Notes: generated by a model from the sequence alone, not told the origin. 32,260 nt of DNA from a virus (IMGVR_UViG_3300023174_000438:1-32260), one strand, 5' to 3'. Counted from the stretch's first letter, positions 6,595-28,300 are shown. Translations and numbers: made by a program.

Positions 6595-7338
6595 ATGGCC
6601 ATATCAAAAAATATGGATGCTCCAAAAGCAAGGTATGCAGAAGCAGTAAAGTCAACCAAAAGTATAGAGGCTAACAATACTGAATATATTGCTGTTCCAG
6701 GAATTCAAGGTGAACGAGGAGAGCAAGGGCCAGCAGGACCTCAAGGACCAGAAGGACCTAAAGGCGATAGAGGTATTCCAGGAAAAGATGGTAGGGATGG
6801 ACCACAGGGGCCACAAGGACCTAAAGGGGATCCTGGTCGTGGCGGTGGAGAAGGGTATGTAAGTCCTTCAGGCCAATATCCAGGTTGGGCATATTATCAA
6901 AATAAAAATAAAAAACCGTTATTTTTAGGACCCGATAGAGGCGATGATGGTTGGGTAGATGTTTTAATGGATGATGATATAGATAACAATATTTTAAAGT
7001 TTCTTCCAGAAGGATCGGTATCTCTTTGGAATTCAGTTACTCAAAGAATTAATTTTAAACAACTAAAAGTAGGTGCTAGAGTAGATATTAGATATGATAT
7101 AGCGCTTACTACTGATACAAATAGCACAGAGGCATGGATTAGAACTTTTATTCCAAAGGTTGAGTCTCCAACGGGATATATCGGAATGCTCAAATATAAA
7201 TATCCTTATGAAATGTCTATTAACCAAACCCTATATGTTGATTTATCAAAGATTAGATCTGAAGGTGCAATAATTCAAGCAAGAGCAGATAATGAAAGCA
7301 CCATTATGTTAAAGGGTATGTACATATCGGTTTCTTAG
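6595..7338 (+). CDS. Collagen-like tail fibre protein (247 aa)
   Basis: After a short N-terminal segment, residues about 36-84 are uninterrupted Gly-x-y triplets ([17 protein letters not shown] and so on), a collagen-like triple helix that would trimerise as a fibre stalk. Residues about 90-247 form a beta-rich C-terminal domain ([16 protein letters not shown], then AWIRTFIPK, ending MYISVS), likely the tip. It follows the Ig-like protein and the 27-aa peptide with almost no gap, suggesting one unit. Host receptor binding is inferred from architecture. Confidence 0.8.
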
Positions 7339-8316: not shown

Positions 8317-9342
8317 ATGGCAGCAGAATCAATTGGAACTTTAGTACCAACAAAAATACCAGGTCTTTCAGATGCTGCAGATATTCAGGCTGCCCTACGC
8401 CTATACCACTATGGATCTTATACTTTTGATACAGCAGAAACAGTTGCTGCAAACCTTGTAAACCCATCTGTAGCATATACAATTAATAACCTTCAGACAC
8501 AAATCAGTGCCCTTTCTGGTGGTAGTGCAATTCAAGCAACAAGTTTTAATGCTAAAGGAGACCTTCTTTCAGCATCAGCAAATGATACTCTATCTGTTTT
8601 AACAGTTGGGTCAAATGGAAGAGTTCTTACAGCAAATTCTGCAACAGCCACGGGACTTGAATGGGCAACAGTAGAAGTAACAGCAACTAGTGCAAATACA
8701 TTTACAAATAAAAAACTTTCAGACTCAACCACAACTATTGTAGATAATACAGATGCTACTAAGGCTATAAAGTTTGATGTTGCTGGTACTACAAATATTA
8801 CTGGAACTATTGCTACCGCTTTTACTACAGCAAAAACCCTTACTCTTCCTGATGCAACAGATACCCTTGTTGGAAGAGGAACATCAGATACATTAACAAA
8901 TAAAATTTTGACAAGCCCAACAATTAATGATTCATTAAGCAATTATCCAACAATAAAATCTCCTACAGAGACAACAAATATTGTTGCTTCTGCTGCAACA
9001 GGAACTATTAATATTAATTCAGAAACCGCAACAATTTGGTACTACACAACAAACGCTTCAGCAAACCATACATTAAACTTTAGATATAGTTCATCTGCTA
9101 GCCTTGATTCAGTGCTTTCGGTTGGAGAGTCAGTAACTGTTGTTTGGATGAATACAAATGGAACTACTCCATACTATCCAAACGTAATTCAAATTGATGG
9201 AAATACTGTAACTCCAAAATGGTCTGGAGGAACAGCACCATCTTCTGGCAATGCAAGCAGTGTTGACGTTTATGCATTTAATATTGTAAAAACAGCATCT
9301 GCAACTTTTGTTGTTCTTGGATCTCAATCAAAGTTTGCGTGA
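8317..9342 (+). CDS. Tail fibre protein with phage-fibre C-terminal domain (341 aa)
   Basis: It carries the fibre cassette AKGDLLSASANDTLSVLTVG / GRVLTANSATATGLEW (about 78-115) also found in the 18438 protein, then TLTLPDATDTL and TLTNKILTSPTIN segments. The C-terminus (YYPNVIQIDG, WSGGTAP, VLGSQSKFA) matches a domain I recognise from tail fibres of aquatic phages. The sequence is low-complexity, Thr/Ala-rich and beta-repeat-like. It is probably a long fibre or tail appendage protein. Confidence 0.65.
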   Translation: MAAESIGTLVPTKIPGLSDAADIQAALRLYHYGSYTFDTAETVAANLVNPSVAYTINNLQTQISALSGGSAIQATSFNAKGDLLSASANDTLSVLTVGSNGRVLTANSATATGLEWATVEVTATSANTFTNKKLSDSTTTIVDNTDATKAIKFDVAGTTNITGTIATAFTTAKTLTLPDATDTLVGRGTSDTLTNKILTSPTINDSLSNYPTIKSPTETTNIVASAATGTININSETATIWYYTTNASANHTLNFRYSSSASLDSVLSVGESVTVVWMNTNGTTPYYPNVIQIDGNTVTPKWSGGTAPSSGNASSVDVYAFNIVKTASATFVVLGSQSKFA

Positions 9343-9348
9343 TAAGAA

Positions 9349-10233
9349 ATGCCAATACGTTCTACTATCGGGGGTTCTAGACTATTAGGTAAAGGTCCAG
9401 TTTCTGTTGTTTCTGGAGGAACTCTTACTTCTGATTCAACATATTTTTATAGAAGTTTTACTGGTAATGGATCTTTAGTTGTTTCTGGCGCTCCACTTGC
9501 TTGTGAATATTTGGTTGTAGCAGGTGGTGGCGGAGGCGGACCTTCTGGTGGTGGCGGAGGCGGGGGCGTTAGAAAATCATCAGCAACACTTACTGCAAAT
9601 ACATATGCTGCTGTTGTAGGAGGTGGTGGCAATTTTACAAATGGAAATCCTTCAAGTTTTAATTCACTTTCAACATCGGGTGGAGGAATGGGTGGAGGCA
9701 ATGGAAATAGTCCTCAAGTAGGTGGCGCTGGAGGTGGAGCAGGAAGTACGGGTGGATCAAGTTTAACTGGTGCAAATGGTAACTCTGGTGGATATACTCC
9801 AGAAGAAGGACAAAAGGGTGGAGACACTAAATCTGGATCAGGTGGTGCTGGTGGTGGTGGAGGAGGTCCTTCATCACAAGGTGCTAACGAAGGTCAAAAT
9901 ATAGGAACAACAAACTATAAACCTGGAGCCAATGGTGGCGCAGGTTCATATTGGGCTGGATTTTCAGATTTGTTTGGATCAGGTGGAAGATTTGCAGGCG
10001 GCGGTGGTGGAGGAGCCATTCAGGTTGGTTATAGCGGAGGAACTGGCGGTCTTGGCGGAGGAGGTAGAGGTGGTCTTGGCGGAGGAGCACCCGACTATCT
10101 TGGAGACAATGGAGTTGCAGGTACAGAAAATACTGGCGGTGGTGGAGGTGGCTCTGGATACGAAGGAACTGGCGGAGGCATGCCTGGTGGAAAAGGAATT
10201 GTTATTGTGCGTTATTTGAAATCGGCGGTATAA
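9349..10233 (+). CDS. Glycine-rich adhesin (294 aa), founder-type
   Basis: Residues about 1-55 are a small beta-rich domain (MPIRSTIGGSRLLGKGPVSV). From about 56 on, long Gly runs alternate with short polar loops, ending GIVIVRYLKSAV. Glycine-rich domains of this kind form polyglycine-II sandwiches in distal fibre adhesins such as phage S16 gp38, where variable loops bind the receptor. The N-terminus differs from the four other glycine-rich proteins in the window, but the C-terminal pattern is shared. It follows the 8317 fibre by 6 nt. Confidence 0.75.
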   Translation: MPIRSTIGGSRLLGKGPVSVVSGGTLTSDSTYFYRSFTGNGSLVVSGAPLACEYLVVAGGGGGGPSGGGGGGGVRKSSATLTANTYAAVVGGGGNFTNGNPSSFNSLSTSGGGMGGGNGNSPQVGGAGGGAGSTGGSSLTGANGNSGGYTPEEGQKGGDTKSGSGGAGGGGGGPSSQGANEGQNIGTTNYKPGANGGAGSYWAGFSDLFGSGGRFAGGGGGGAIQVGYSGGTGGLGGGGRGGLGGGAPDYLGDNGVAGTENTGGGGGGSGYEGTGGGMPGGKGIVIVRYLKSAV

Positions 10234-10234
10234 A

Positions 10235-10516
10235 ATGTCACATTGGGCAGAAGTAGATAAAAACAATATTGTTATACGTGTTACAGCGGGAGATAATAAT
10301 GACCCTAATGGCGATGAGGGATACCAATGGCTATTAGATAATCTTGGTGGAACTTGGATTAAAACTTCTTATAATGCAAGAGGTGGAGGATTCAGAATGA
10401 ATTTTGCTGGACCTGGATATACTTGGGATGAAACAAATGATAGATTTATAGCACCACAACCAGGACCTTCTTGGATATTAAATGAAGAGACAGCACTCTG
10501 GGAATTGCCTTCTTAA
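10235..10516 (+). CDS. Phage structural/tail-fibre accessory protein (93 aa)
   Basis: Begins MSHWAEVDKNNIVIRVTAGD, followed by NDPNGDEGYQWLLDNLGGTW and a C-terminal PGPSWILNEETALWELPS. This is a conserved small protein of aquatic myo- and siphophages, usually near tail fibres and annotated as a virion or fibre-assembly protein. Two W-x-LNEE/W-x-P style repeats match the 12395 protein. It starts one base after the adhesin stop, so a chaperone or adaptor role for that adhesin is plausible. Confidence 0.65.
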   Translation: MSHWAEVDKNNIVIRVTAGDNNDPNGDEGYQWLLDNLGGTWIKTSYNARGGGFRMNFAGPGYTWDETNDRFIAPQPGPSWILNEETALWELPS

Positions 10517-10517
10517 A

Positions 10518-10546
10518 TTGAGTTTTAATTTTACTAATGCTATACT
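10518..10546 (+). promoter_or_regulatory. Promoter with -35 for a leaderless gene (10553)
   Basis: TTGAGT (10518-10523), 17 nt, then TATACT (10541-10546, preceded by TGC as an extended -10), and 6 nt later the ATG at 10553. The start of transcription should coincide with the start codon. Confidence 0.7.
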
Positions 10547-10552
10547 TTAACT

Positions 10553-11296
10553 ATGACGCAAAATATTAAATTTACAAATACTTCAGGGTACCAAGATTTA
10601 TTAAAACCAGTACCAGCATATACAATGGTTCCAGAATGGTATAAACAAACAGAATCTTATATTGGTGGAAAAAAGAAGCCAACTGGTGATGGTGGGACTA
10701 AGGCTACTATAAAACGTTGTATGCCAGTATTTGATGCTATATCAGCAGGATATTTAATTTTGCTTCCCGCCGATGTTTGGGTATCTCTTAAAGAAGCAAC
10801 TGCTGTAGATGCACAAACCAAAGAACCTATTCAAGATATGCCTACAAAAATGATGCAGCAGTTTGAGTGGTCTAATTTTAACCTTGTTTCTTTTCATCCA
10901 ATAGAGCAAGCCCCACTGCATCCCTCTAAAAATGAACATGCTTACCCAAAATGGATTAATCACTGGTCTATTAAAACACCAAAGGGGTATTCTACACAAA
11001 TCATTCAGCCAATGCACAGGGAATCAGTATTTACAATTATGCCTGGAATTGTAGATACAGATAAATACTCTGCCCCAATAAATTTTCCTATGGTTATTAA
11101 TGACCCTAATTTTGAAGGGCTTATTCCAAAAGGAACCCCAATAGCACAAGTAATCCCATTTAAAAGAGAGTCCTGGCAAATGGAAATTGGAAAAGATTCT
11201 GATATTATTGATCAGGCTAATATTACTACTGAACTACAGACCAAACTTTTTGACCGTTATAAGGGTATGTTTAGGACTATAAAAGAGTATAAGTAG
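10553..11296 (+). CDS. DUF6065-type phage protein (247 aa)
   Basis: The sections VPEWYKQTESYIGG, INHWSIKTPKGYSTQIIQPM, PINFPMVINDPNFEGLIPKG and TPIAQVIPFKRESWQMEI match a conserved phage family I know as DUF6065, beta-rich and of unknown function. It is not obviously structural, yet it lies among adhesin genes with its own TTGAGT/TATACT promoter and no ribosome site. The layout resembles the minus-strand protein at 4456-5208. Confidence 0.7.
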   Translation: MTQNIKFTNTSGYQDLLKPVPAYTMVPEWYKQTESYIGGKKKPTGDGGTKATIKRCMPVFDAISAGYLILLPADVWVSLKEATAVDAQTKEPIQDMPTKMMQQFEWSNFNLVSFHPIEQAPLHPSKNEHAYPKWINHWSIKTPKGYSTQIIQPMHRESVFTIMPGIVDTDKYSAPINFPMVINDPNFEGLIPKGTPIAQVIPFKRESWQMEIGKDSDIIDQANITTELQTKLFDRYKGMFRTIKEYK

Positions 11297-11305
11297 TGAT
11301 ATAAT
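11297..11305 (+). promoter_or_regulatory. Extended -10 promoter before 11332
   Basis: TGATATAAT; the predicted start near 11312 leaves a 20-nt leader with AGGAG. Confidence 0.55.
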
Positions 11306-11331
11306 ATAATTATCATACTTAGGAGTTATCG

Positions 11332-12330
11332 ATGGCAACCAATGTTTTTCCAATAGCATCAACGTCAACAACAAGTTTAAGCACACTTGTAAATACTATT
11401 ACTGCAACAACTGCTAATACAATATATAAAGGCACTGTAAATATGGCTCCCGCAGTCTACACAATCACAGTTCCGTCAGGCACCATGACAATGACATTTA
11501 TTGCTGCAGATAGATCTACTTCATCCACCTACACAAACTCTGTAACAACTGGTGTAACATTTAATATTGCCTTTACAGTAGATACAATTATTTATAGACA
11601 TAGTGCCAACTCTGGATCTGCAACAATTCAAGCAACAGGTAGTCCAGTATCTATAGCAGCATCAGGAATTCTTGATACTTTAACAACTTCACAGGCATAT
11701 GATAGGTCTGGTAAATATGTATATGTTTGTGCAGTTGGTGGTGGTGCTGGTGGCGGTGCAGGATGGGGAAACGGTTATGGAAGTTTTGGTGCTTCAGGAG
11801 GAACAAGTGGTGGTGTAACAAATTCAGAATTTTTAATGACAGCACCCGTCAATATTACAATTGGTTCACAAGGAAATGGTGGAAATACAGGAGGAGCAAG
11901 CGGCAATTCTGGTGGTACAACAAATTTTGGAAACTTAGTTTCTGCAGTTGGCGGCGCTGGTGGTGCAGGTGGCCAAGGAAATAATGGTGGAAGTCCTGGA
12001 AGTCCAACACCCCCATCGGGTGGCGGTAATGCTGGCGCAAATGGTGGTAACGGAGGTGCTTCTGGTTCTGCGGCTTCATGGGTAAAAACAGGAACTACTG
12101 GAGGCGGTGGTGGTGGTGCATATCAAAATGGCGCAGGTGGCAATGGAGGAGGTTCTGGAGGTATAGGAACTGGTGGTAAAGGTGGAGATGGCGCTGGCTC
12201 GGGAAGTGGTCCTGCTGTTGCGGGCAGCGGTTATGGTGCTGGCGGTGGCGGTGGAGCATCATGGAACAGTACTCTACAACCAGGAGCAGCAGGAACTCAA
12301 GGAGTGGTTTACGTAGTTTACAATACATAA
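11332..12330 (+). CDS. Glycine-rich adhesin paralogue 1 (332 aa)
   Basis: Begins MATNVFPIASTSTTSLSTLV. Residues about 1-115 form a beta-sandwich-like domain shared with the 13188, 14154 and 15133 proteins (NVFP start, YTIT strand, NSGSATIQATG, then a DTLTTSQ linker). The rest is a glycine-rich domain with the TGTTGGGGG motif and a GTQGVVYVVY ending. It is likely a receptor-binding tip. The ribosome site is AGGAG. Confidence 0.75.
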   Translation: MATNVFPIASTSTTSLSTLVNTITATTANTIYKGTVNMAPAVYTITVPSGTMTMTFIAADRSTSSTYTNSVTTGVTFNIAFTVDTIIYRHSANSGSATIQATGSPVSIAASGILDTLTTSQAYDRSGKYVYVCAVGGGAGGGAGWGNGYGSFGASGGTSGGVTNSEFLMTAPVNITIGSQGNGGNTGGASGNSGGTTNFGNLVSAVGGAGGAGGQGNNGGSPGSPTPPSGGGNAGANGGNGGASGSAASWVKTGTTGGGGGGAYQNGAGGNGGGSGGIGTGGKGGDGAGSGSGPAVAGSGYGAGGGGGASWNSTLQPGAAGTQGVVYVVYNT

Positions 12331-12338
12331 AATAAATC

Positions 12339-12347
12339 TGGTATAAT
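12339..12347 (+). promoter_or_regulatory. Extended -10 promoter before 12395
   Basis: TGGTATAAT. The predicted start near 12354 is followed at once by a hairpin, GATAG-TTTAAC-CTATC (12357-12372), then AAGGAG. Confidence 0.6.
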
Positions 12348-12394
12348 AATACCAAAGATAGTTTAACCTATCATTACTAAACAAGGAGTAAATA

Positions 12395-12703
12395 ATGGCA
12401 AATTATGCGGTAATTGATAACGAGACAGTTATTAACACAATCGTTGCAGACTCAGTAGAAGTCGCACAACAAGTTACAGGAAAGACCTGTATTGAATATA
12501 CAGATGAAGCCCCACTAGGAGTTAACTGGTATTGGGATGCTACAGCAGATGCTTATATCATGCCATCACCACATACAGGATGGATTTATAACTATGAGTC
12601 AAAGGTTTGGGAAGCACCAACACCTATGCCAGAAGTAGAAGGAAAATTCTATAATTGGAATGACGAAACACAGTCTTGGGATGAATTTACACCAGAAGCC
12701 TAA
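12395..12703 (+). CDS. Phage tail-fibre accessory protein (102 aa)
   Basis: Begins MANYAVIDNETVINTIVADS, followed by GVNWYWDATADAYIMPSPHT, then two W-based repeats (GWIYNYESKVWEAP and FYNWNDETQSWDEF). N-terminal MANYAVI-type proteins are small tail-fibre partners in many phages. The Trp repeats are like those of the 10235 protein. It lies between two glycine-rich adhesins and has an AAGGAG ribosome site. A fibre-assembly role is inferred. Confidence 0.6.
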   Translation: MANYAVIDNETVINTIVADSVEVAQQVTGKTCIEYTDEAPLGVNWYWDATADAYIMPSPHTGWIYNYESKVWEAPTPMPEVEGKFYNWNDETQSWDEFTPEA

Positions 12704-12725
12704 GTTTTAAATATTAAAAATAGTG

Positions 12726-12731
12726 TATAAT
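12726..12731 (+). promoter_or_regulatory. -10 box before 12791
   Basis: TAGTGTATAAT context; the same 11 bp precedes the box at 13156. The leader of about 53 nt holds GAAGAGG as a ribosome site and no clear hairpin. Confidence 0.5.
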
Positions 12732-12790
12732 TAGAATATACGTGATCCTACGATAAAAGCGGGGACACGGCTAAAGAAGAGGTAATATAA

Positions 12791-13093
12791 ATGGCAACAA
12801 CAACTAAGGCTCTTGCTAGAACAGCAGCAGCAACATCATCAACAACACTTTATACAGTTCCAGCATCAACAACTGCGGTAATTACAAATATTGTAGTTAC
12901 TAACACAGCAGCAACTTCAGCAACATTTACTATTACACTTGACGGAGTTGCAATGCAGTCTGGATCAACTATTGCTGCTAACTCAAGCGCATATTTTGAC
13001 TTGAAGCAGGTTCTTGCTACAACCAAGATTGTGGCTGGTTTTGCATCAGCAACAACTGTAAACTTCCACATCTCAGGTGTAGAAATTTTTTAA
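12791..13093 (+). CDS. Small beta-sandwich virion protein (100 aa)
   Basis: Begins MATTTKALARTAAATSSTTL. A YTVPASTTAVITNIVVTNTA section is followed by ATFTITLDGVAM and YFDLKQVL, typical of small phage proteins with a single jelly-roll-like domain that decorate tails or capsids. It is Thr/Ala-rich, 100 aa, in one piece. It has its own promoter and is followed by a terminator-like hairpin, so it may be a highly expressed single-gene unit. Confidence 0.6.
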   Translation: MATTTKALARTAAATSSTTLYTVPASTTAVITNIVVTNTAATSATFTITLDGVAMQSGSTIAANSSAYFDLKQVLATTKIVAGFASATTVNFHISGVEIF

Positions 13094-13108
13094 TTCTTTT
13101 AAGATAAG

Positions 13109-13145
13109 AATACCCCAGCCTATATGGTTTAAGGTATTTTTATTT
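13109..13145 (+). terminator. Probable rho-independent terminator after 12791-13093
   Basis: AATACC (13109-13114) pairs with GGTATT (13133-13138) and AGCC with GGTT inside, around a TATAT loop, followed by TTTATTT. Stem strength is moderate because of internal mismatches. Confidence 0.55.
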
Positions 13146-13155
13146 AATAGTAGTG

Positions 13156-13161
13156 TATAAT
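13156..13161 (+). promoter_or_regulatory. -10 box before 13188
   Basis: TATAAT in the context TAGTGTATAAT, directly after the terminator. AAGGAG serves as ribosome site for 13188. Confidence 0.55.
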
Positions 13162-13187
13162 ATCAGTATATACATAAGGAGTAACTA

Positions 13188-14147
13188 ATGGCTTCAAACG
13201 TTTTTCCAGCAGCAGCATCTGGCTCATCTTCACCAAGTACAATTGCTCAAACTGTAGTGGCGGCAAGTGCCAACACTATGTATGGTGCAAATGTAACTTT
13301 AACGCCAGGGACATATACTATAACATGCGTAAGTTCAACAAACGTAGAAGTAACATTTTGGTCAGGATCTTCACTAATTACAACAGCAACAACTGTATCA
13401 GGAACTATTTCTGTTAATATTGCAACTGAAGTAACAAGAATATCATATTATACAAATACTGGATCAGCCGTTGTTATTAATATTCAACTAACTGGAAATG
13501 CCTTAACATATGCCGCAAGTGGCACACTTGATACAATAACAACATCACAATCTCCTTACACCAGAACGGGAAGAGCCTATGTTGTAGTTGTAGGTGCTGG
13601 TGGCGGTGGCGGTCCTGCATACGTCAATGGTCCTAGAGGAGGAGCAGGTGGTTCAGGTGGAGTTGCTTCAGGTATAGTTTATTTAAATGGAAATTCAAAC
13701 ATAGTCATTGGTGCACCTGGCAATGGTGGTGGCTATAATGGTGGATCTGTTGTACAAGGTAACGCTGGAGGAGCAACTTCTTTAGGAAGTATAACAGCAA
13801 ATGGTGGCGGTGCTGGCGGCGGTGGTTGGAATACTTCAGGTGGTGGCGGTGGTGGAGGAGGAACTCCAGGCGGTGGAAACGGTGGCACTGCTCCAAATGG
13901 AGGAAATGCTAATACTGGTGGTGGCGCTGGTAACGCAAGTTCGGCACCAACATATAGTTTTGTTAAAAGTGGTACAACAGGTGGCGGTGGCGCAGTAGGT
14001 GGCGCAGGCGCAGGATCTGGAATTGGAACTGGTGGCTCAACCACAGGTGGTGGCACAGGATATGGTGCTGGTGGAGGTGGATATGGATGGTTTGGAGATA
14101 GTGGACCTGGTTCACAAGGTGTGGTCTATGTATTGTATGGAGTTTAA
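13188..14147 (+). CDS. Glycine-rich adhesin paralogue 2 (319 aa)
   Basis: Begins MASNVFPAAASGSSSPSTIA. It has the same N-terminal beta domain as the 11332, 14154 and 15133 proteins (TPGTYTITC, TNTGSAVVINIQLTGNALTY), then a linker DTITTSQSPYTRTGRAYVVV. The rest is a glycine-rich domain with KSGTTGGGG and a SQGVVYVLYGV ending. Loops between Gly runs differ from its paralogues, as expected for receptor-binding surfaces. The next paralogue starts 6 nt after the stop. Confidence 0.75.
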   Translation: MASNVFPAAASGSSSPSTIAQTVVAASANTMYGANVTLTPGTYTITCVSSTNVEVTFWSGSSLITTATTVSGTISVNIATEVTRISYYTNTGSAVVINIQLTGNALTYAASGTLDTITTSQSPYTRTGRAYVVVVGAGGGGGPAYVNGPRGGAGGSGGVASGIVYLNGNSNIVIGAPGNGGGYNGGSVVQGNAGGATSLGSITANGGGAGGGGWNTSGGGGGGGGTPGGGNGGTAPNGGNANTGGGAGNASSAPTYSFVKSGTTGGGGAVGGAGAGSGIGTGGSTTGGGTGYGAGGGGYGWFGDSGPGSQGVVYVLYGV

Positions 14148-14153
14148 TAAATA

Positions 14154-15113
14154 ATGGCAAATACAGTATTTCCCGTAGCAGTAACTAGTTCTACTGCTGG
14201 ACCAGACACAATCAAAAGAACTACTGTAGCAACTGCTGCAAATACATATTATAGTGCAGATATATCTTTACAAGCAGGGTATTATGCAATTACTTGCACA
14301 AGCACAACAGTAACAACAATATATTTCTTTAATGGTGATACATTTTTAGGTACAGGGGTAACATCAAGTGGTGTGCTTAATTACAATATTACAACACCTG
14401 TAACAAAAATAATCTTTTTTACAAACACTGGTTCAAATATTGAAATTAATATACAACTTTCTTCTATAAATCTTACAAAATTAGGATTAACTGCTGGTTC
14501 AGTAACTCAAATAACTTCTTCTCAAACTTATACAGGAGTTGGAACTGGTTTTGTTGTTGCAGTTGGCGGCGGCGGTGGCGGTGGCGGTGGTAGAGAATAC
14601 GGTGGTGGCCCAGCACATGCAGGCGGCGGAGGCTCTGGCGGAGTTTCAAGTACAATAAGATACTTTAATGGATCAACACCAGTAGTAATTGGAACTTATG
14701 GCACAGGTGAGCCAGTATACGGTTATTATGGATCTAGTGGTAATGGTGGTGGAACAACTACCGTTGACACAAATGCAGTAATTGCCAATGGCGGTGGTGG
14801 CGGTAGTGGTTTTGGCGGTGGCGGAGGAGGAACTAACGGAGTTACTGGAGCAGCCTCTGGTGGTAATGGTGGAGATATTGCAGGAGGTAGTGGCAACGCA
14901 TCTACTGCTTCTGCCTATAACAATGCAGTGTCTGGTACAACTGGAGGTGGATCTGGTGGAGGAAATCCAGGAGGAAGTGGTATTGGCCGTGGAGGAAACT
15001 CTGGCGGTGGAGCAGCATCTGGTAGAGGCGCAGGAGGCGGTGGTGGTAACGCCGCTGGTGGTCAAGGCGGAATTGGAACCGCAGGAGTTGTATACATCCA
15101 ACTACTAACATGA
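14154..15113 (+). CDS. Glycine-rich adhesin paralogue 3 (319 aa)
   Basis: Begins MANTVFPVAVTSSTAGPDTI. The N-terminal domain shares YYAITCTSTTVTT, TNTGSNIEINIQL and the TSSQTYTGVGTGFVV linker with the other paralogues. The glycine-rich part has SGTTGGGSGGG and ends TAGVVYIQLLT. There is no clear ribosome site and only 6 nt to the previous gene, so it is probably translated from the same mRNA. Divergence from paralogues 2 and 4 is spread over the whole gene, not only the loops. Confidence 0.75.
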   Translation: MANTVFPVAVTSSTAGPDTIKRTTVATAANTYYSADISLQAGYYAITCTSTTVTTIYFFNGDTFLGTGVTSSGVLNYNITTPVTKIIFFTNTGSNIEINIQLSSINLTKLGLTAGSVTQITSSQTYTGVGTGFVVAVGGGGGGGGGREYGGGPAHAGGGGSGGVSSTIRYFNGSTPVVIGTYGTGEPVYGYYGSSGNGGGTTTVDTNAVIANGGGGGSGFGGGGGGTNGVTGAASGGNGGDIAGGSGNASTASAYNNAVSGTTGGGSGGGNPGGSGIGRGGNSGGGAASGRGAGGGGGNAAGGQGGIGTAGVVYIQLLT

Positions 15114-15132
15114 TTATTATATAGGAGAAATT

Positions 15133-16020
15133 ATGGCAACAAATGTATTTCCAGTAGCAAGTAGTGCATCAGGTGGTTCAGACACGCTTGCAAAAACAAT
15201 ATCAGTTGCATCTCCATATACTTTAACTTACGGAACAGGCACTTTTGCTGTTGGAACATATACCATTACTTGTGCGTCTTCAACAATTGCTACAGTTTCA
15301 TTTTTTGGCAGTAATAATTCTTTAATAGGAACTGCAGTCACAGCAAGCGGCACTGTAGCATTTAATTTAGCCTCACCAGCAACTAGTGTGTCTGTACTTA
15401 CAAATACTGGATCAAACATAGTTGTTAATATTCAATTAACAGGTAGTGCAATAACAACAGCAAATTCAGGAACATTGGTTACACTTACTAACTCTCAAAC
15501 ATATACAGATACAGGACGAGCATATGTTGTTGCCGTAGCAGGTGGGGCTAATGGTGGAACTGGTTCTGCCAGTGTAGGTGCTAGTGGCGGTGCATCTGGT
15601 GGAATAACTTCTGGTGTTGTTGGTTTAACTGGAAGCACGGCAGTAGTAATTGGTGCAGGTGGCGGAGGATCAACATCTATTGGAAACGTAACTGCAAATA
15701 CTGGAGGAACAGGATCTGGCGCAGGCGGAGGATATTCAGGATATGGTGGTGGAGCAAACGGAACGGCATCTTCTGCTCCAGAATATACTTTTGTTAAAAC
15801 AGGCACAACTGGTGGAGGCGGAGCAAGTGGAGTAAACGTATCTAGATCTGGTGGAGGCTCAGGCATTGGCACTGGAGGCACGGGAGGATCTAACGTAAAT
15901 GGTGGTGCAACTGGCGGATCAGGATATGGTGCTGGCGGCGGCGGTGGCAGCATAGATAACGCAGGTGGTCGTGATGGAGGCCCAGGAACACAAGGCGTAA
16001 TCTATTTAATTAAATTTTAA
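15133..16020 (+). CDS. Glycine-rich adhesin paralogue 4 (295 aa)
   Basis: Begins MATNVFPVASSASGGSDTLA. It has the shared N-terminal domain (GTYTITCASSTIATVSFFGS, TNTGSNIVVNIQLTGSAIT) and TNSQTYTDTGRAYVV linker, with a shorter glycine-rich part (KTGTTGGGG, ending TQGVIYLIKF). The ribosome site is AGGAGA. It is the last adhesin before the bidirectional terminator and the oppositely oriented endolysin gene. Confidence 0.75.
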   Translation: MATNVFPVASSASGGSDTLAKTISVASPYTLTYGTGTFAVGTYTITCASSTIATVSFFGSNNSLIGTAVTASGTVAFNLASPATSVSVLTNTGSNIVVNIQLTGSAITTANSGTLVTLTNSQTYTDTGRAYVVAVAGGANGGTGSASVGASGGASGGITSGVVGLTGSTAVVIGAGGGGSTSIGNVTANTGGTGSGAGGGYSGYGGGANGTASSAPEYTFVKTGTTGGGGASGVNVSRSGGGSGIGTGGTGGSNVNGGATGGSGYGAGGGGGSIDNAGGRDGGPGTQGVIYLIKF

Positions 16021-16070: not shown

Positions 16071-16643
16071 TTAAAGATATCGTTTAGGGAACTTCTTTAA
16101 CCATTTTTGGTATTGAACAGGCTTGGCATGTTTCCAAGACTTCCAATTTGTTCCACCCTCAGTCATATGAAATACAATTTCTGCATTTTTCACGGGACTG
16201 AATAACTCAGCATTAGTATCTAGGTTAAACTTATCTCTACGATCTGGTCCTAGATCACCGATCATATTTATTTGGAATACCCCGTAAGAACTGTCTCCAG
16301 TCTTAGCGTTTCCATTAAAAGCAAAAGGTCTTCCGTTTGATTCTGCTTTAGCAACAGCCCAAGCAGTCTTTAAACCTTTTCCTGTAAAACCTACAGCCTT
16401 TAACATTTGAACTAAGTCATAGTCACTCAAAGATACAGCATTTGTGTATTTTGCTAAGATTACCTTATTACTTGGTTTAGAAACCAAAAAAGCCGACTTG
16501 AGGTCGGCAGGGGCAGTCAAAGACTTATTATTCAATAAATTATTATCAGTTGCAGTTGTTAGCGCATTAGCAGAATTACTGACGGGTGCCAGAACTCCAA
16601 CCAATGATAGGATTCCAATCCAAGCCATTTTGTCTCTTCTCAT
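16071..16643 (-). CDS. Secreted lysozyme-like transglycosylase (endolysin), 190 aa
   Basis: Residues about 1-28 are a Sec-type signal peptide (MRRDK, hydrophobic WIGILSLVGVLAPV, likely cut near SANALT). The catalytic domain has AVAKAESNGRP with a likely catalytic Glu101, then DSSYGVFQIN (117-126) and a final NWKSWKHAK block. This is the layout of the lysozyme/transglycosylase superfamily that cuts peptidoglycan glycan strands. AGGAGG lies 9 nt before the ATG. Secretion means it may not need a classical holin. It is the only gene on this strand within the adhesin block. Confidence 0.8.
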   Translation of the reverse strand: MRRDKMAWIGILSLVGVLAPVSNSANALTTATDNNLLNNKSLTAPADLKSAFLVSKPSNKVILAKYTNAVSLSDYDLVQMLKAVGFTGKGLKTAWAVAKAESNGRPFAFNGNAKTGDSSYGVFQINMIGDLGPDRRDKFNLDTNAELFSPVKNAEIVFHMTEGGTNWKSWKHAKPVQYQKWLKKFPKRYL

Positions 16644-17974: not shown

Positions 17975-18421
17975 ATGGCTAAATTATCAATTGCAAGCAT
18001 TAAGTCTCTGTTTCAAACTGGAGACCGTCCAAGTCAAACAAACTATGAAGATTTGATTGACAGTACCTCTGCAAGATCAACAGACCTTGGTTCAGATGGC
18101 AATAATGAGGTTACAATTAACGGCATTGAAAACTCAACAATTTTTGATAACTTTTTGGCAAGTGAATGGAGATCAGTAAAATACATGGTCTCAATTAAAA
18201 AGACTTCTGGCGGCGCAAATAAATACTGGGCCACAGAATTAACCATTGTTCCTGATAATACAAATGTAAATGTTAGCGAATATGGAACAGTAGACAATGA
18301 TGGGAATATTGGCACCATCTCCGTGTCTAGAGCAGGAGATACAGTTTCACTGACTGTAGTTCCAGTGGGTGGGCAAACACCAATAACCTTGCGCTATTTG
18401 CGTATTGGGTTAAAGGCCTAA
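17975..18421 (+). CDS. Tail protein with C-terminal domain shared with the 620-aa fibre (148 aa)
   Basis: Begins MAKLSIASIKSLFQTGDRPS, a short helical head. Residues about 60-148 (EWRSVKYMVSIKKTSGGANK, NVNVSEYGTVDNDGNIGTIS, then RYLRIGLKA) align in layout with the C-terminal domain of the 18438 protein (YSAAKYIVQLKNAGGD, VYLTEYADVQSNGELGTTN, KTYIKA). Two neighbours thus end in the same beta-sandwich domain. The start is leaderless by promoter position. Confidence 0.65.
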   Translation: MAKLSIASIKSLFQTGDRPSQTNYEDLIDSTSARSTDLGSDGNNEVTINGIENSTIFDNFLASEWRSVKYMVSIKKTSGGANKYWATELTIVPDNTNVNVSEYGTVDNDGNIGTISVSRAGDTVSLTVVPVGGQTPITLRYLRIGLKA

Positions 18422-20864: not shown

Positions 20865-23141
20865 ATGGCAACAAGAATGCAACAGCGCAGAGGTACTGCT
20901 GCTCAATGGGTTTCAACAAACTCTGGCAATGGCCCAATCCTCAACGCAGGTGAAATCGGATATGAAACCGATACAAATAAATTTAAAATTGGTGACGGTA
21001 CAAATCACTGGATCAACCTTGACTACTTTGTTGATGCTAACTCAACAGTAAACCCTGCCTTTGGCTCAAGTATCACATTTGAAGGTGCTACAGATAACGC
21101 CTTTGAAACTACCCTGTCAATAACAGATCCAACTGCAGATCGGACTATTACATTCCCAGATGCAACTGGAACTGTTGTTTTGGCCGACGGTAGCGGAAAT
21201 GTTACAGTATCAGGAGACCTAACTGTAAGTGGTACAACTACTACTATTAATAGCACAACAATTAATGCTACAACAGGAATTGTTTTTGAAGGTGCTACAG
21301 CAAATGCTTTTGAAACAACATTAACAGTTACAGACCCTACAGCAGACAGAACGGTTACATTTCAAGATGCAACAGGAACAGTTGTCCTAAGAGACTCAAC
21401 AGACACTCTTACAAATAAAACCTTAACTTCTCCAGTAATCAATACACCTACTGGAATTACAAAATCAGATGTAGGGCTTGCAAACGTTGATAATACAACA
21501 GATGCTAATAAGCCAGTTTCAACTGCTACACAAACGGCGCTTGATCTTAAGGCACCGCTAGCAAATCCAACATTTACAGGAACTGTAACACTTCCTTCAG
21601 GAACAGTCACATCAACAATGATTCTTGATGGAACTATCTTGAATGCAGATATTAATGAATCAGCAGCAATTGCATTGTCTAAATTAGCAACAGACCCCCT
21701 TGCTCGTGCAAACCACACAGGCTCACAAACAGCATCAACAATTTCAGATTTTAATGAAGCAGCACAAGATGCCATTGGCGGAATTTTGGGTACTGGATTA
21801 ACTTATAACGATGCATCTAATACAATTACAGTAGATTCAACAAATATTCAGTTGCGAGTAACAGGCGTAACAGATACAGAAATTGGATATCTAGACGGTG
21901 TTACTTCTGCAATTCAGACTCAGATGGATGCTAAGGCACCACTTGCTTCCCCAACATTTACAGGTACTGTAGTATTACCTTCAACAGTAAATGGACCAGG
22001 TGCTAGCACATCAGTTAACTTGTTATTCCCAACAACTAGCGGACATATTACACTTGGTGGATCACAAACAACTGGAAACCTCACACTTGGCGGAGGATCA
22101 GGAAGAACAACTGGTGTAATTGGAATTGGAACTGGTGCAACAACATCTGGAACCAAGACAGTTGATATTGGAACTGGCTCAACAGGAGGAACCACAGCAA
22201 TTACAGTTGGTTCTTCTTCTGGAGCAACATCTAATATTACTTTAAATGGTACAGTAACAGCAGCAAACAATCTTGTAGTTACTGGCGATTTGACTGTAAA
22301 CGGAACAACCACAACAATTAACTCAACTACTCTTGCAGTAGATGATAAAAATGTTGTTCTTGGAGATATTGCATCCCCAACAGATGTAACAGCAGATGGT
22401 GGCGGTATAACATTAAAGGGTACAACAGATAAGACATTTAACTGGGTAGATGCTACAGATGCTTGGACTTCATCAGAACATATTAATATTGCTTCAGGAA
22501 AATCATATTATGTAAATGGAACAGCATTAAAAGATGTTACAGAAACTTTAACTAACAAAACTTTAACTTCACCAACTTTGACTACTCCAGCACTAGGAAC
22601 ACCAGCCTCTGGTGTACTTACAAACGCAACAGGTCTTCCTGTTTCAACTGGTATTTCAGGTCTAGGAACTGGTATTGCAACAGCACTAGCAGTTAATACA
22701 GGATCTGCAGGAGCACCAGTATTATTCAATGGAGCACTTGGAACACCTACAAGCGGTACTCTTACAAATGCTACAGGTCTTCCACTTACATCAGGTGTAA
22801 CTGGAACTCTCCCAATTGCAAATGGTGGTACAGGTGCAACAACAGCATCAACTGCTGCAGCAGCCTTACTTCCATCACAGACATCAAATTCTGGAAAATA
22901 TCTTACAACAGATGGTTCAGGTACACTATCTTGGGGCACAGTATCAGGATACTCAGCACCAACACTTGGTTCAACATCAATTGGATCTGGTGCAACAGTA
23001 ACTACTATTGCAGGACTAACATTAACAGCACCAACACTAACTGGAACAGTAACTGCATCAGGAGATATTAATTTGTCTGCTGCTAATGGTCCAGGAAGTT
23101 TAATTGATGAACTAACATTGTTAATGATGGGCGCTTTTTAA
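20865..23141 (+). CDS. Long repetitive tail fibre with Mtd-like N-terminal domain (758 aa)
   Basis: Residues 1-52 ([42 protein letters not shown]) are the short N-terminal fibre domain known from the major tropism determinant and many tail fibres. The EFEGAT-type repeat follows at about 72-107 and 141-176. [19 protein letters not shown] segments and a GDLTVNG...[15 protein letters not shown] module (about 474-552), both shared with the 18438 fibre, come next. After tandem [11 protein letters not shown] and TNATGLP repeats the protein ends near MMGAF. It is probably a host-binding fibre. Confidence 0.8.
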
Positions 23142-23281: not shown

Positions 23282-25315
23282 ATGTCAGAAAGCGTATTTT
23301 CTTTTCGTCTATCAGAAGAATTTGTAAATAAATATCAAACCATTCCAGCACCATTTGGATTCTCAGATGCAGGATCTAACTCGTTGGGAGAGGTAACATT
23401 TATTCGCACATATTCTCGTGTTAAAGAAGACGGGACTAAAGAACGCTGGCATGAAGTATGTCGTCGTGTAATCGAGGGTATGTACTCAGTTCAAAAAAAT
23501 CATGCCAAGGATAATCGTCTACCATGGAATGACAATAAAGCACAGAAGTCTGCCCAAGAAGCATTTCAAAGAATGTTTGAATTAAAGTGGACTCCACCAG
23601 GCCGTGGTCTCTGGGCATTTGGAACTCCTATGACTATGGAGAAGCGCAATTCTGCATCCCTTCAAAATTGTGCAATGGTCTCAACAAGAGATATTGATCG
23701 TAATGATCCAGGTGCACTTTTTGCTTGGGTAATGGATGCATTGATGTTAGGAATTGGTGTAGGGTTTGATACCCTTGGACAAGACAAGCAAATGTCTATT
23801 TATGCTCCAACAGAGCCAGCATCTATTTATGAAATCCCAGACACCCGTGAAGGATGGGTAGAATCTGTTAGATTACTTATTAATTCATTTCTTCGTGCAA
23901 ACCAGCCTATTCAGCAGTTTACCTATGACCTTATCCGTCCTCTAGGTGCCCCTATTAAGGGCTTTGGAGGCGTTGCAAGCGGTCCAGCACCACTTATTGA
24001 TCTCCATACACGTATTCGCAATGTAATCGGTTCTAGAGCGGGAGAAGCCCTTGATAGCCGTGCAATTGTAGACCTAGTAAATCTTATTGGTACCTGTGTG
24101 GTATCAGGAAATGTTCGTCGTTCTGCTACCCTTGCACTTGGTGTTCCAGAAGACGAAGGTTTTATTAATCTTAAAAATCCAGAAGTATTCCCAGAAAGAA
24201 ATTCATATGATCCAGAAAAACCAGGTTGGGCATGGATGAGTAATAACTCTATTGCTGCTGAGGTTGGAACTAAGTATGAAGACTATGTAGATTTAATTGC
24301 AGACAATGGAGAGCCAGGTTTTATCTGGTTAGACGTTGCTCGTAATTATGGCCGTCTTGCCGATGCACCTGATTATAAAGATGCTCGCATTATGGGCTTC
24401 AATCCTTGTGCGGAGCAGCCATTAGAATCATACGAACTTTGTACACTTGTAGAGGTGCACTTAAATCGTCATGAGTCCAAGGAGGACTTCCTCAAGACAT
24501 TGAAGTTTGCCTATCTTTATGGAAAGACTGTAACTCTTATGCCAACTCATTGGCAACAGACAAACGGAATTATGCAACGTAATCGCCGTATTGGAACATC
24601 CCTTACAGGCATCGCTGCATTTGCTGATGAACATGGTTTGCCAGTTATTCGTGAATGGATGGACGAAGGGTATAAAACAATTCGTAAATATGATCATTCA
24701 TATTCAGAATGGCTCTGTGTTCGTGAATCAGTTCGTGTAACAACAGTTAAGCCTTCAGGATCAGTATCACTTCTTTCTGGTGCTACCCCTGGAGTTCACT
24801 GGGGTCCTGGTGGAGAGTTCTATCTTCGTGCTATTCGTTTTGGAAATACTGATCCAATGCTTCATTTGTTTAAAGCAGCGGGGTATAAAATTGAAGCAGA
24901 CCTTGTATCAGCAAATACCTCAGTAGTATATTTCCCAGTAGCATCTGGACACAAACGTGCAGAGAAGCAAGTTAGCCTATTTGAAAAAATTGGTTTGGCA
25001 GCAACTGCTCAGAAGTATTGGTCAGATAATGGTGTTTCTGTAACACTTTCATTTGATAAGGAAGAGGAAAAGAAGTTCATTGCTCCAGCCCTTAATATGT
25101 ACGAGGGACAATTAAAGGCAGTTTCATTTCTTCCAATGGGAAATAAAACTTATCCTCAGCAACCTTATTCAGAAATATCAAGAGAAGAATACAACTCATA
25201 TGTAGGCAAGATTGGCAAGATTGATTGGTCTGCTATTTATGATGGTGTAGAAAATCTTGAAGCAGAGGGCGAAGCATATTGCTCAACTGACGCTTGTGAG
25301 ATTAAGTTTTACTAG
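23282..25315 (+). CDS. nrdJ: Adenosylcobalamin-dependent ribonucleotide reductase (class II), 677 aa
   Basis: Makes deoxyribonucleotides from ribonucleotides using a B12-generated thiyl radical. NPCAE at 374-378 gives the radical Cys376 and Glu378. The redox pair is C130 (SLQNC) and C387, and C376-C387 keeps the 11-residue step of the Lactobacillus leichmannii triphosphate reductase (C408-C419). The C-terminal CSTDAC (667-672) is the CxxxxC shuttle of that monomeric type. KPSGSVSLLSGATPG (490-504) is the phosphate loop. At 677 aa it is slightly shorter than the 739-aa reference. It stands alone between tail genes with its own promoter, preceded by a terminator. Confidence 0.95.
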   Translation: MSESVFSFRLSEEFVNKYQTIPAPFGFSDAGSNSLGEVTFIRTYSRVKEDGTKERWHEVCRRVIEGMYSVQKNHAKDNRLPWNDNKAQKSAQEAFQRMFELKWTPPGRGLWAFGTPMTMEKRNSASLQNCAMVSTRDIDRNDPGALFAWVMDALMLGIGVGFDTLGQDKQMSIYAPTEPASIYEIPDTREGWVESVRLLINSFLRANQPIQQFTYDLIRPLGAPIKGFGGVASGPAPLIDLHTRIRNVIGSRAGEALDSRAIVDLVNLIGTCVVSGNVRRSATLALGVPEDEGFINLKNPEVFPERNSYDPEKPGWAWMSNNSIAAEVGTKYEDYVDLIADNGEPGFIWLDVARNYGRLADAPDYKDARIMGFNPCAEQPLESYELCTLVEVHLNRHESKEDFLKTLKFAYLYGKTVTLMPTHWQQTNGIMQRNRRIGTSLTGIAAFADEHGLPVIREWMDEGYKTIRKYDHSYSEWLCVRESVRVTTVKPSGSVSLLSGATPGVHWGPGGEFYLRAIRFGNTDPMLHLFKAAGYKIEADLVSANTSVVYFPVASGHKRAEKQVSLFEKIGLAATAQKYWSDNGVSVTLSFDKEEEKKFIAPALNMYEGQLKAVSFLPMGNKTYPQQPYSEISREEYNSYVGKIGKIDWSAIYDGVENLEAEGEAYCSTDACEIKFY

Positions 25316-25350: not shown

Positions 25351-28300
25351 ATGTCTAACCCGTCAAATCTGTATGCAGAGAAAATTTTCTCAGAACACCC
25401 ACTGGTTTTGTGGGCACTTGATGATAAGGCTGACTACGTAAGTTTAATAACAGAAGCACAAAGAAATATTGAATCTCAGTGGACAGTCACTGGAGCAACA
25501 GTCAATACGGATCCTGGAAGTGGAGCAATAAACCCTCCATTTAAAGATAGTCTTTCAACTAATATTTTGGGAACTGTCCCATCTGGAGCAACAAGAACTA
25601 TATCTTTAGTTAGTCCAAATCTTACAAATTTTTCTAATATGGACTCTTTACTTGAGACATTTTCTATTGGTTCATATTTTTATTCTAATAGTGTTTATGT
25701 TAATTCTGTTTCAATTGGCTTTGAATATACAGATCCAAGCACATCTTCAATTGTTCAAGAACTTGAAACCTTTAATGAACCTCTTTATACAAAATGGTCT
25801 TTTATATCTTCAACTTTTAAAATACCAAATAAGATTGCTACATTTAGAATTGTAATTAAAATAGTAACTGCATCTGGAGGGGCAAATTCATCAGACTATG
25901 AGTTTGACATAAATGGAATAAGTGCAGGACAGTGGGCCGAAGAGTTTAACGCAACATCTCTTGGAGTACAGACAGTTGCTTTTCCAAATACAATTGCAAT
26001 AGAAGATAGTCGTGCAGTTCAAGCAGAGGCGTATGGGCTAGGGGATAAAAGTGGATACTACCTTTCAGGCACAACATCTTTATTTGCTAAAAACACAAGC
26101 ATACCATTAGTATATGGAGCATCTGGATTAACCAAGATTGTTCCAAATGGAGATAATCCATCATTAATAATTCCTGGACAAGGATTTTTAAATGAAGCGG
26201 GTAGGCACAAAGAGTATACTGTTGAATTTTGGGCAAGAATTAATTCAGATGCAACATTACCTAAAAGAATTTTTGGACCAATATCTTCATCAGATGGCTT
26301 ATATGTAGAGTCAGGGTTTCTTACTTTAAAAATTAATAAATCTTTTAAATCACATTTTGTTGGTGAGTGGTATAGACCAATGTTGATAAATATTAGATTA
26401 GTCAAAGACTCTGCAACACTTCTTGTAAATGGAGAAGAAGTTCTATCTATTTCTTTTGACACAAAGACTATTCCTTTACCATCAATACTAAATGATCCAA
26501 GTGGAAAAGAGCAGGACTGGCTTGGATTTTATGCACATGAAGATGTTCCAGAAATTGAGATTGATTGTGTTGCTATTTATCCATACCAAGTTCCAGTAAC
26601 AATGGCAAAGCGTAGGTGGGTATATGGCCAAGGAGTAGAATCACCAGAAGGAATTAATTCAGCATATGGAGGAACTTCTTCTTTTATTGACTATACTTTT
26701 GCAGACTATACCGCAAACTATTCTTATCCAAGTTTTGCAAAATGGCAACAGGCTAGTTTTGACAACTTATTTGCATCAAGAACATCTTTACAAACACCAA
26801 CATATAGTTTGCCTCAAATGTCTATTGGTTCAAAAACTACAGAAGATTTGTATAATGATAATCAAGCAGTACAGGTTGGATTAAATAATTTTATAACATT
26901 TAGACCTAATGAAACTTGGGCAACAACTCCTGCGTACTTTAATTTTCCACAACTTAATATTCTTAGTGATGAAATACATGCCATATATGCTGTAGTTCAA
27001 ATTAATGAAGATGATCTAACAGAACAAACAATTGTTGAAATAAAAAATACAATAAATGGAAATCGTTTTACTATTAGAAAAAATGGCTCAAGCATAGACT
27101 ATTGCCTAAAATATAATGGAGTAGAAGAAGATATTTTAGTTGGACAGGAATTTTTATTAGAAAGAAAGTTTGCAGTTGGAATCAACATAGAAACCCTAGT
27201 ATCTGAATTTGGTGGAAATGTTGCATCATTTTTTGGCAATAGAAATGGCCTAACTGTATATTTTGGTGGAGATGATTCTGGACAAAGAACATTTGCTGGA
27301 TATATGTACTCTATTGGATTTTCTACACTTTTTAATAAAACACAGATTACTGATCATTTTTTAAGTAATGGAACTGCAAATATTAATTCAGGAGACGAAC
27401 TCCTTGCTCATACAGCAAGTTATACACTGCTTCCTTTAGAGGCATACGATAACTTTTATCTAGATATCGGTGTTTCTGGATATTGGGAAGACTATATGCC
27501 ATTGTCTTATTTTGCACAATATGTTAAAAATGATATTGGCAATGAGTATTACGATTTAGATTTTTTGCAATTTAATGTTGACTACCCTTTGCCATCAAAA
27601 ATAACTGAAACTCAAGTTGGCATTGAGTCATTCTCATATGGAGAACTAGACAAAATGTACTCTTCTCCAACCCAAAAAACGTATGCAGATCTAGCAGATC
27701 AAGGGGCAGAGGGATGGTTAGACTATTTAGATATGGCTCAAGCATCCATAAGTGCATATGCGTATGACACTACAGGTGCATCAATAAAAAGTTATATTAC
27801 TTTTCAATATATAGACGAAGGTGCCAATTCTCCACAAAGTTATTTTCCTAAACTAGATAAGCCTTTAGCCAGTAGAATTTTAGATATAGATAATCATCCT
27901 CAATGGCTAACTACAAAGTTTGAAGTTGTTGACAATACACTTATTTATCCTACCAAAACAATTGATTTTAATAAATTAGCAATTGTCTATAGTCTTGAGT
28001 TTGATATTCGTGGATCACTAACTAAGCCAATAACACTGAGAAACCTATCACTTTCTTCTCAGGTGTTTAATAATAACTCGTTTAATCCAGTTGGAACAAA
28101 ATTTGGCACACAAGTCTATCCATATAAAAAGTCTGGACTATATTATGACTATAAGTCTAAAAACCCATATACCATTTATAAGGGCAGCACTCCATACCTT
28201 TATATGACAAGAAATTCGGGTATTGAAGTCCGTGGAACATTTGATCAGTCAATTGACAGAGGTATATCTATGCCAGTAAACTCAAGTCTTGCTGATAACT

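Follow-up and report, generated by a model that had tools for sequence, protein, structure and literature searches.

The region described here is probably a receptor-binding cassette, hypervariable between relatives, of a freshwater-type tailed phage with an actinobacterial host. In it, a short N-terminal tag on glycine-rich tip proteins is associated with the type of a small neighboring gene, SMALL. The DNA analyzed (the window) is a 32,260-base linear IMG/VR record from a metagenome, with a GC content of 38%. Judged from its relatives, the likely host is an actinobacterium, since the window's portal protein has 45% identity to those of large Streptomyces siphophages and cultured phages infecting 'Ca. 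Planktophila' and Pontimonas, both actinobacteria, have the module as well. The features discussed below, with the basis of assignment in brackets for the tips and signals, are as follows:

6595..7338, + strand: left conserved anchor of the variable locus, collagen-like
8317..9342, + strand: fibre-like protein ending GSQSKFA, the tail type paired with MPIRS-type tips
9349..10233, + strand: glycine-rich tip protein, 294 aa, head type MPIRSxxGGSRLLG (ORF; Pfam, PHROG, model)
10235..10516, + strand: small downstream partner, phrog_7759 family, chaperone-like by position
10553..11296, + strand: conserved locus protein, phrog_7084
11299..11313, + strand: promoter-like element ATATAATATAATTAT, 5' of 11332 (one of two exact window matches)
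11332..12330, + strand: tip paralogue 1, 332 aa, with tag MATNVFP, beta head and glycine-rich tip (ORF, alignment, evolution)
12395..12703, + strand: small downstream partner, phrog_14370/7759
12791..13093, + strand: SMALL, 100 aa, proposed tag-reading adaptor
13105..13142, + strand: intrinsic-terminator-like hairpin and T run (fold z -4.1 to -4.6; conserved in L005 and L011)
13155..13169, + strand: promoter-like element GTATAATATCAGTAT, 5' of 13188 (alignment)
13188..14147, + strand: tip paralogue 2, 319 aa, with tag 1-14 disordered, beta head 20-105 and tip 111-319 (model)
14154..15113, + strand: tip paralogue 3, 319 aa (ORF, alignment, evolution)
15133..16020, + strand: tip paralogue 4, 295 aa (ORF, alignment, tree)
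16071..16643, - strand: lysozyme-like (SLT_3) gene, right edge of the variable region
17975..18421, + strand: right conserved anchor
20865..23141, + strand: fibre protein with Mtd_N start and LLMMGAF tail, the type paired with SMALL

Elsewhere in the window, a B12-dependent-type ribonucleotide reductase (23282-25315) lies within the structural gene region, and a 1198-aa protein without a PHROG or Pfam match (25351-28947) lies between it and the portal gene.

The glycine-rich proteins and the predicted tip fold

A reading of the sequence alone had described an array of five glycine-rich adhesins, four of them paralogues, and ORFs for all five are found at the coordinates above. The four paralogues align over their full length, with 43-49% identity to 11332. 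Their starts follow the proposed MA-x-x-VFP form, being MATNVFP (11332), MASNVFP (13188), MANTVFP (14154) and MATNVFP (15133), and their ends are G-VVY-like as described (GVVYVVY, GVVYVLY, GVVYIQL and GVIYLIK, in the same order). Two internal motifs needed adjustment: the linker given as TSQ is present in the paralogues in the exact form T-x-SQ, and GTTGGGG occurs in three of them, while 14154 reads GTTGGGS. Compared with composition-matched shuffles, both the heads (z 7.9-20.5) and the tips (z 9.8-13.9) are clearly related, with 0 of 500 shuffles scoring as high in either case. The shared N-terminus includes a start tag that unrelated proteins also carry, a point that the earlier reading overlooked, as it did the small partner genes. 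The array itself is real, but it is uninterrupted only for 13188-14154-15133; genes 10235, 10553, 12395 and 12791 lie between the others.

The fifth protein, 9349, is glycine-rich and has a different head, as had been proposed, but its sequence hints only faintly at the proposed kinship of its tip with those of the paralogues (shuffle z 1.4-3.3; hhalign probability 79% over 51 columns), and its structural model is poor (pLDDT 56). It matches phrog_2295 (E 1.6e-27) and reaches 21 bits with Pfam Gly_rich_2 (PF21722), under the gathering cut-off of 24.3 bits. With the same family 11332 reaches 22 bits, also under the cut-off, 13188, 14154 and 15133 have no match, and cultured relatives reach 62-85 bits. 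A tblastn search of isolated phages with 15133 likewise gave no match. In the Pontimonas phage phiPsal1 (L307:6349-7245), a 298-aa TTG-start Gly_rich_2 gene (84.6 bits) was missed in the GenBank annotation, which has two short ORFs instead.

To describe the fold, we modeled 13188 with AlphaFold2 on 42 homologues (pLDDT 88.4); residues 1-14, which form the tag, are disordered in this model. Residues 113-318 match the Bxb1 tail tip (9d93_Qb) with Z 21.2, at 2.5 A over 181 residues and 33% identity, and the tip domain matches the Pam3 fibre gp24 (7ypx) with Z 18.5. The two matches (rmsd 2.2-2.5 A over 173-181 residues) stand well clear of every other row of the fold search, and S16 gp38 is absent among the matches listed. 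Most BFVD matches are to glycine-rich domain proteins of phages, among them minor tail proteins of mycobacteriophages. On this model the tip domain of 13188 is of the Bxb1/Pam3 glycine-rich type, and the tips of 11332, 14154 and 15133 are shared with it at the sequence level. The head (residues 16-106) is modeled as a beta sandwich with generic matches to many unrelated beta proteins (best Z ~8.8). The model has no helix, and thus neither a helical shaft of the Pam3 gp24 type nor a helical N-terminus of the gp38 type. The expectation of adhesin-like tips is borne out by the predicted fold of 13188 and by the gene order shared with cultured phages and with viruses of haloarchaea in which the adhesin locus follows host range. 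These tips belong to a phage adhesin domain of a known kind.

Start tag, SMALL and fibre tail

Written as the pattern M[AGST]x(1-3)[VIY][FY]P, the tag begins 86 of 3893 non-redundant proteins, compared with 9 occurrences after 9595 internal Met residues. The tagged proteins comprise ~16 head groups unconnected by BLAST, including proteins that are not glycine-rich, and in 56 of the 86 the gene immediately upstream is SMALL. Two types of SMALL differ in length and start: the short one has at most 105 aa and reads MATTxKAL..., the long one has at least 107 aa and reads MATTYKVLGQ.... In the first data set, an x-FP tag follows short SMALL in 79 of 94 pairs and long SMALL in 0 of 22 (P 3e-14). The tag classes were defined after viewing this data set; held-out loci were tested with the regular expression and length cut fixed beforehand, and here the tag follows short SMALL in 43 of 65 cases and long SMALL in 2 of 42 (P 3e-11), the sole out-of-sample test. 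One long-SMALL case (L024) starts MAISVLP, near the tag pattern. Many of the exceptions among short-SMALL pairs (22 of 65 held-out pairs are without the x-FP tag) have the common start K-[LFM]-S-N-A-G-G, a possible third tag class judging by these starts. In held-out loci L449, L455, L422 and L420 this start follows a 101-aa SMALL variant, on glycine-rich and on other bodies.

The tag follows the SMALL type even where the bodies are alike: on near-identical or homologous bodies the tag is VFP where short SMALL precedes and SKL or SSL where long SMALL precedes (L228 or L188 compared with L236; L220 compared with L177). Within the 33 loci that have both SMALL types, the x-FP tag stands at the short one in 28 and at the long one in 1 borderline case.

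The C-terminal tail of the upstream fibre varies in the same manner. Among fibres with the 8317 head, the tail is LMGA/LIGG-like in 10/10 where SMALL is the next gene, SQS[KR]FA in 5/5 before MPIRS tips, and GDLxA-like in 5/6 before heads of the MP[IV]xG..SSG type, the sixth being MNQLLGNLSSGG. Thus the type of the fibre tail matches the next gene. More broadly, a hydrophobic-G tail is found on 74 of 116 proteins upstream of SMALL compared with 195 of 3893 overall, and in held-out loci on 45 of 89 compared with 146 of 1342. The window fibre 20865 ends in LLMMGAF, as expected for the SMALL-linked type.

The arrangement of the genes also bears on this association. SMALL and tip share a stop/start overlap, TAATG, in 81 of 107 held-out pairs, which is typical of coupled translation. 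The window departs from this, which counts against SMALL as an adaptor: a 94-nt gap with a terminator lies between SMALL (12791) and 13188, so that the two are not directly coupled, and no SMALL is paired with 11332, 14154 or 15133, although all three keep the tag. In the window, L005, L011 and L012, SMALL and the tip are separated by a hairpin terminator that is conserved and an element of the TATAATAT type. Searches with SMALL 12791 gave no tblastn match in isolated phages, where the long type did match; a sequence search of the PDB with SMALL returned nothing, and bacterial genomes returned five distant matches in MAGs of unrelated taxa, one of them within a longer frame.

We infer docking and an adaptor role for SMALL from these associations in sequence; presence in virions and receptor binding are inferences as well. 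In the explanation that we favor, with some reservation, each of the four tips would have three parts. A short N-terminal tag, MA-x-x-VFP, would be followed by a beta-sandwich head that can be exchanged and then by a glycine-rich tip of the Bxb1/Pam3 type, with loops that would contact the host. The tag would be a docking element, which SMALL would read, linking the tip to a fibre with the ...LMGA tail (20865 in the window). The downstream partner gene may help the tip to fold, by analogy with gp25 for Pam3 gp24. Recombination would swap whole tip bodies while tag, SMALL type and fibre tail remain matched, and tips with the same tag would share, or compete for, one socket.

Could the same pattern arise in an ordinary hypervariable adhesin locus, in which tag, SMALL and tail travel together as recombining neighbors and have no docking role? 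The pieces are adjacent, mostly with one-base overlaps, and linkage alone gives covariation; moreover, hafunaviruses are known to have hypervariable loci with glycine-rich adhesins (PMC8651126). However, one body bears different tags and one tag sits on many bodies, with breakpoints just past the tag, and window paralogues that adjoin no SMALL still have it. The third-base identity of the tag (0.595, compared with 0.553 expected) is close to expectation, which indicates that the tag is conserved as protein and not as DNA. Such near-random synonymous sites argue against a DNA homology arm, and a role of the tag as a DNA recombination site is disfavored for the same reason. We regard plain linkage as unlikely, though it deserves serious consideration.

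A second possibility, which we likewise hold to be doubtful, is that SMALL is an assembly chaperone or trimeriser of the tip or fibre that stays outside the virion, the tag being its recognition signal. Its small size and translational coupling fit this role, and the chaperone that Pam3 tips require does not occur in virions (PMC9608196). However, a separate partner family already stands directly downstream of many tips: it follows 105 of 220 glycine-rich genes, compared with 25 of 2734 other genes (a PDB sequence search with this partner gave chance-level matches). The phiPsal1 homologue of SMALL, in addition, is annotated as a virion structural protein, an annotation made by similarity only.

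The docking-tag explanation has a broader form, for which we see the balance as even: environmental phages would use a connector code, in which the SMALL family and the fibre tail read the tag and many unrelated tips are pluggable, and one genome could hold several tips per socket together with a second, orthogonal type of socket. If the tag does dock, tag and neighboring SMALL could reveal host-recognition proteins in metagenomes, even those with bodies unlike any known protein, and would define which unit is exchanged when host range turns over rapidly. A docking tag would also offer a way into the arms race proposed for abundant freshwater actinobacteria, in which phage predation is proposed as a driver of microdiversity (PMC10202952).

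Turnover and maintenance of the locus

To place the window among its relatives, we compared 56 non-identical loci that hold both anchors (homologues of 6595 and 17975, 48-100% identical). The distance between the anchors ranges from 1.4 to 11.3 kb. In 16 of the 56 the locus is empty, the left anchor leading directly to the 16071 lysozyme-like gene, and the others carry glycine-rich tips, a tandem set of four 125-aa 'IKSVQRG' proteins, or else unrelated genes. Thus the locus is a hypervariable island between shared flanking genes. The number of glycine-rich proteins per locus is 0 in 36, 1 in 12, 2 in 2, 3 in 1, 4 in 2 and 5 in 3, the window being one of these last three. The earlier assertion that most phages have one such adhesin does not hold in these relatives, where 36 have none, 12 one and 8 two to five.

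Other contents of the locus are also variable. In L171 (3817-5376), L173 and L274, four tandem 125-aa 'GGGIKSVQRG' paralogues replace the glycine-rich tips, a second kind of array at this site, and bear the related start tags MGILVIP, MGVRAIP, MALDTYP and MVISTYP. L303, L256, L095 and L124 hold non-adhesin genes, several of which resemble, by eye, 2OG-Fe oxygenases or sugar-modifying enzymes. The phrog_7084 protein (10553-11296 in the window; also L014, L059 and L083) often has two to three diverged copies near tip genes, sometimes on the opposite strand, and has homologues in haloarchaeal viruses.

For three of the window paralogues, the partner in the tree is an orthologue from a different phage (supports 99-100). 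An origin of the four by local duplication is rejected: they form a clade in 0 of 200 bootstrap trees. Comparison of 11332 with L005 reveals a head-tip mosaic, with dS of 0.71 in the head and 0.08 in the tip. Because dN/dS is 0.05-0.50 in each part compared, the tip genes are under purifying selection and maintained, and the window has no decaying copy of the kind that would have spoken against an array of adhesins. In L012, a close relative with anchors 98-99% identical to those of the window, an N-type tip copy (11519-12540) has an in-frame TGA after 200 residues, with the rest of the frame open; this may be a recent inactivation or else a sequencing error.

An element found by alignment, TATAATATNANTAT, has two exact occurrences in the window, immediately 5' of 11332 and 13188, and is promoter-like, a putative promoter on this evidence; matches in a generic sigma-70 promoter scan were no more numerous than in shuffles. 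Several receptor-binding tips on one virion, the other possibility raised in the earlier reading, may occur: the shared tag, the purifying selection and the promoter-like elements before two paralogues together suggest that more than one tip paralogue is made.

Turnover of the locus among close relatives supports, at population scale, the proposal that the array is a repertoire for switching hosts; switching within a genome gains no such support. A phase-variable array, in which inversion or retroelement diversification leaves one tip expressed at a time, is suggested by the several alternative tips per genome, which resemble such systems, but is very improbable: the inverted repeats around the tip genes are only short and imperfect (75-82%), and no recombinase or reverse transcriptase is present among the scanned proteins of this 32-kb fragment. 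Finally, the record is metagenomic and glycine repeats are difficult to assemble, but an artefact that merged genes of several phages is scarcely credible given the independent contigs L005, L009/L011, L012 and L286, which have like arrays and the same flanks.

Comparison with known systems

What is new here is the number of tips, the turnover of the cassette and, above all, the tag-SMALL association; a broad literature search for a tag-adaptor arrangement found no relevant report, a weak sign of novelty. The component parts have clear counterparts. The tip fold resembles that of Bxb1 (9d93 chain Qb), an actinobacterial siphophage in which the polyglycine domains reportedly associate with the central fibre protein (PMC13252515), but the window has four paralogues in one variable locus, each with a beta head and a VFP tag. 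Cyanophage Pam3 gp24, with its chaperone gp25 (7ypx), offers a TNF-like plus glycine-rich tip and a small partner gene; Pam3, however, has a helical N-terminal shaft and a single fibre protein, whereas the window has a disordered tag, a beta head and small flanking genes on both sides. The T-even gp38 adhesins (S16, PP01) share the glycine runs, the variable loops at the fibre tip and modular exchange, but attach through short N-terminal helices, which the 13188 model does not have.

The layout of the locus and docking by a short peptide also have precedents. In hafunaviruses, a glycine-rich adhesin and a small gene occupy a hypervariable locus that tracks host range (PMC8651126), and the homologue of 10553, gp36, adjoins the tail-gene cluster of these haloarchaeal viruses; one adhesin gene per genome is described there, compared with up to five here. 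Klebsiella phage KP32 RBP2 has a conserved peptide, short and N-terminal, through which one receptor-binding protein docks on another (PMC13082707), but these are depolymerase tailspikes, and neither a small adaptor nor a many-body association code is described for them. The module itself recurs in the cultured phages E7 and F5 of 'Ca. Planktophila', for which a variable island at the tail-fibre region is described (PMC10202952), and in phiPsal1. Like the window, they have SMALL, one or more glycine-rich tips and a downstream partner; unlike the window, they carry the tags MSISSLKTG, MAIRSLKTG and MSIRSLS, together with the long type of SMALL.
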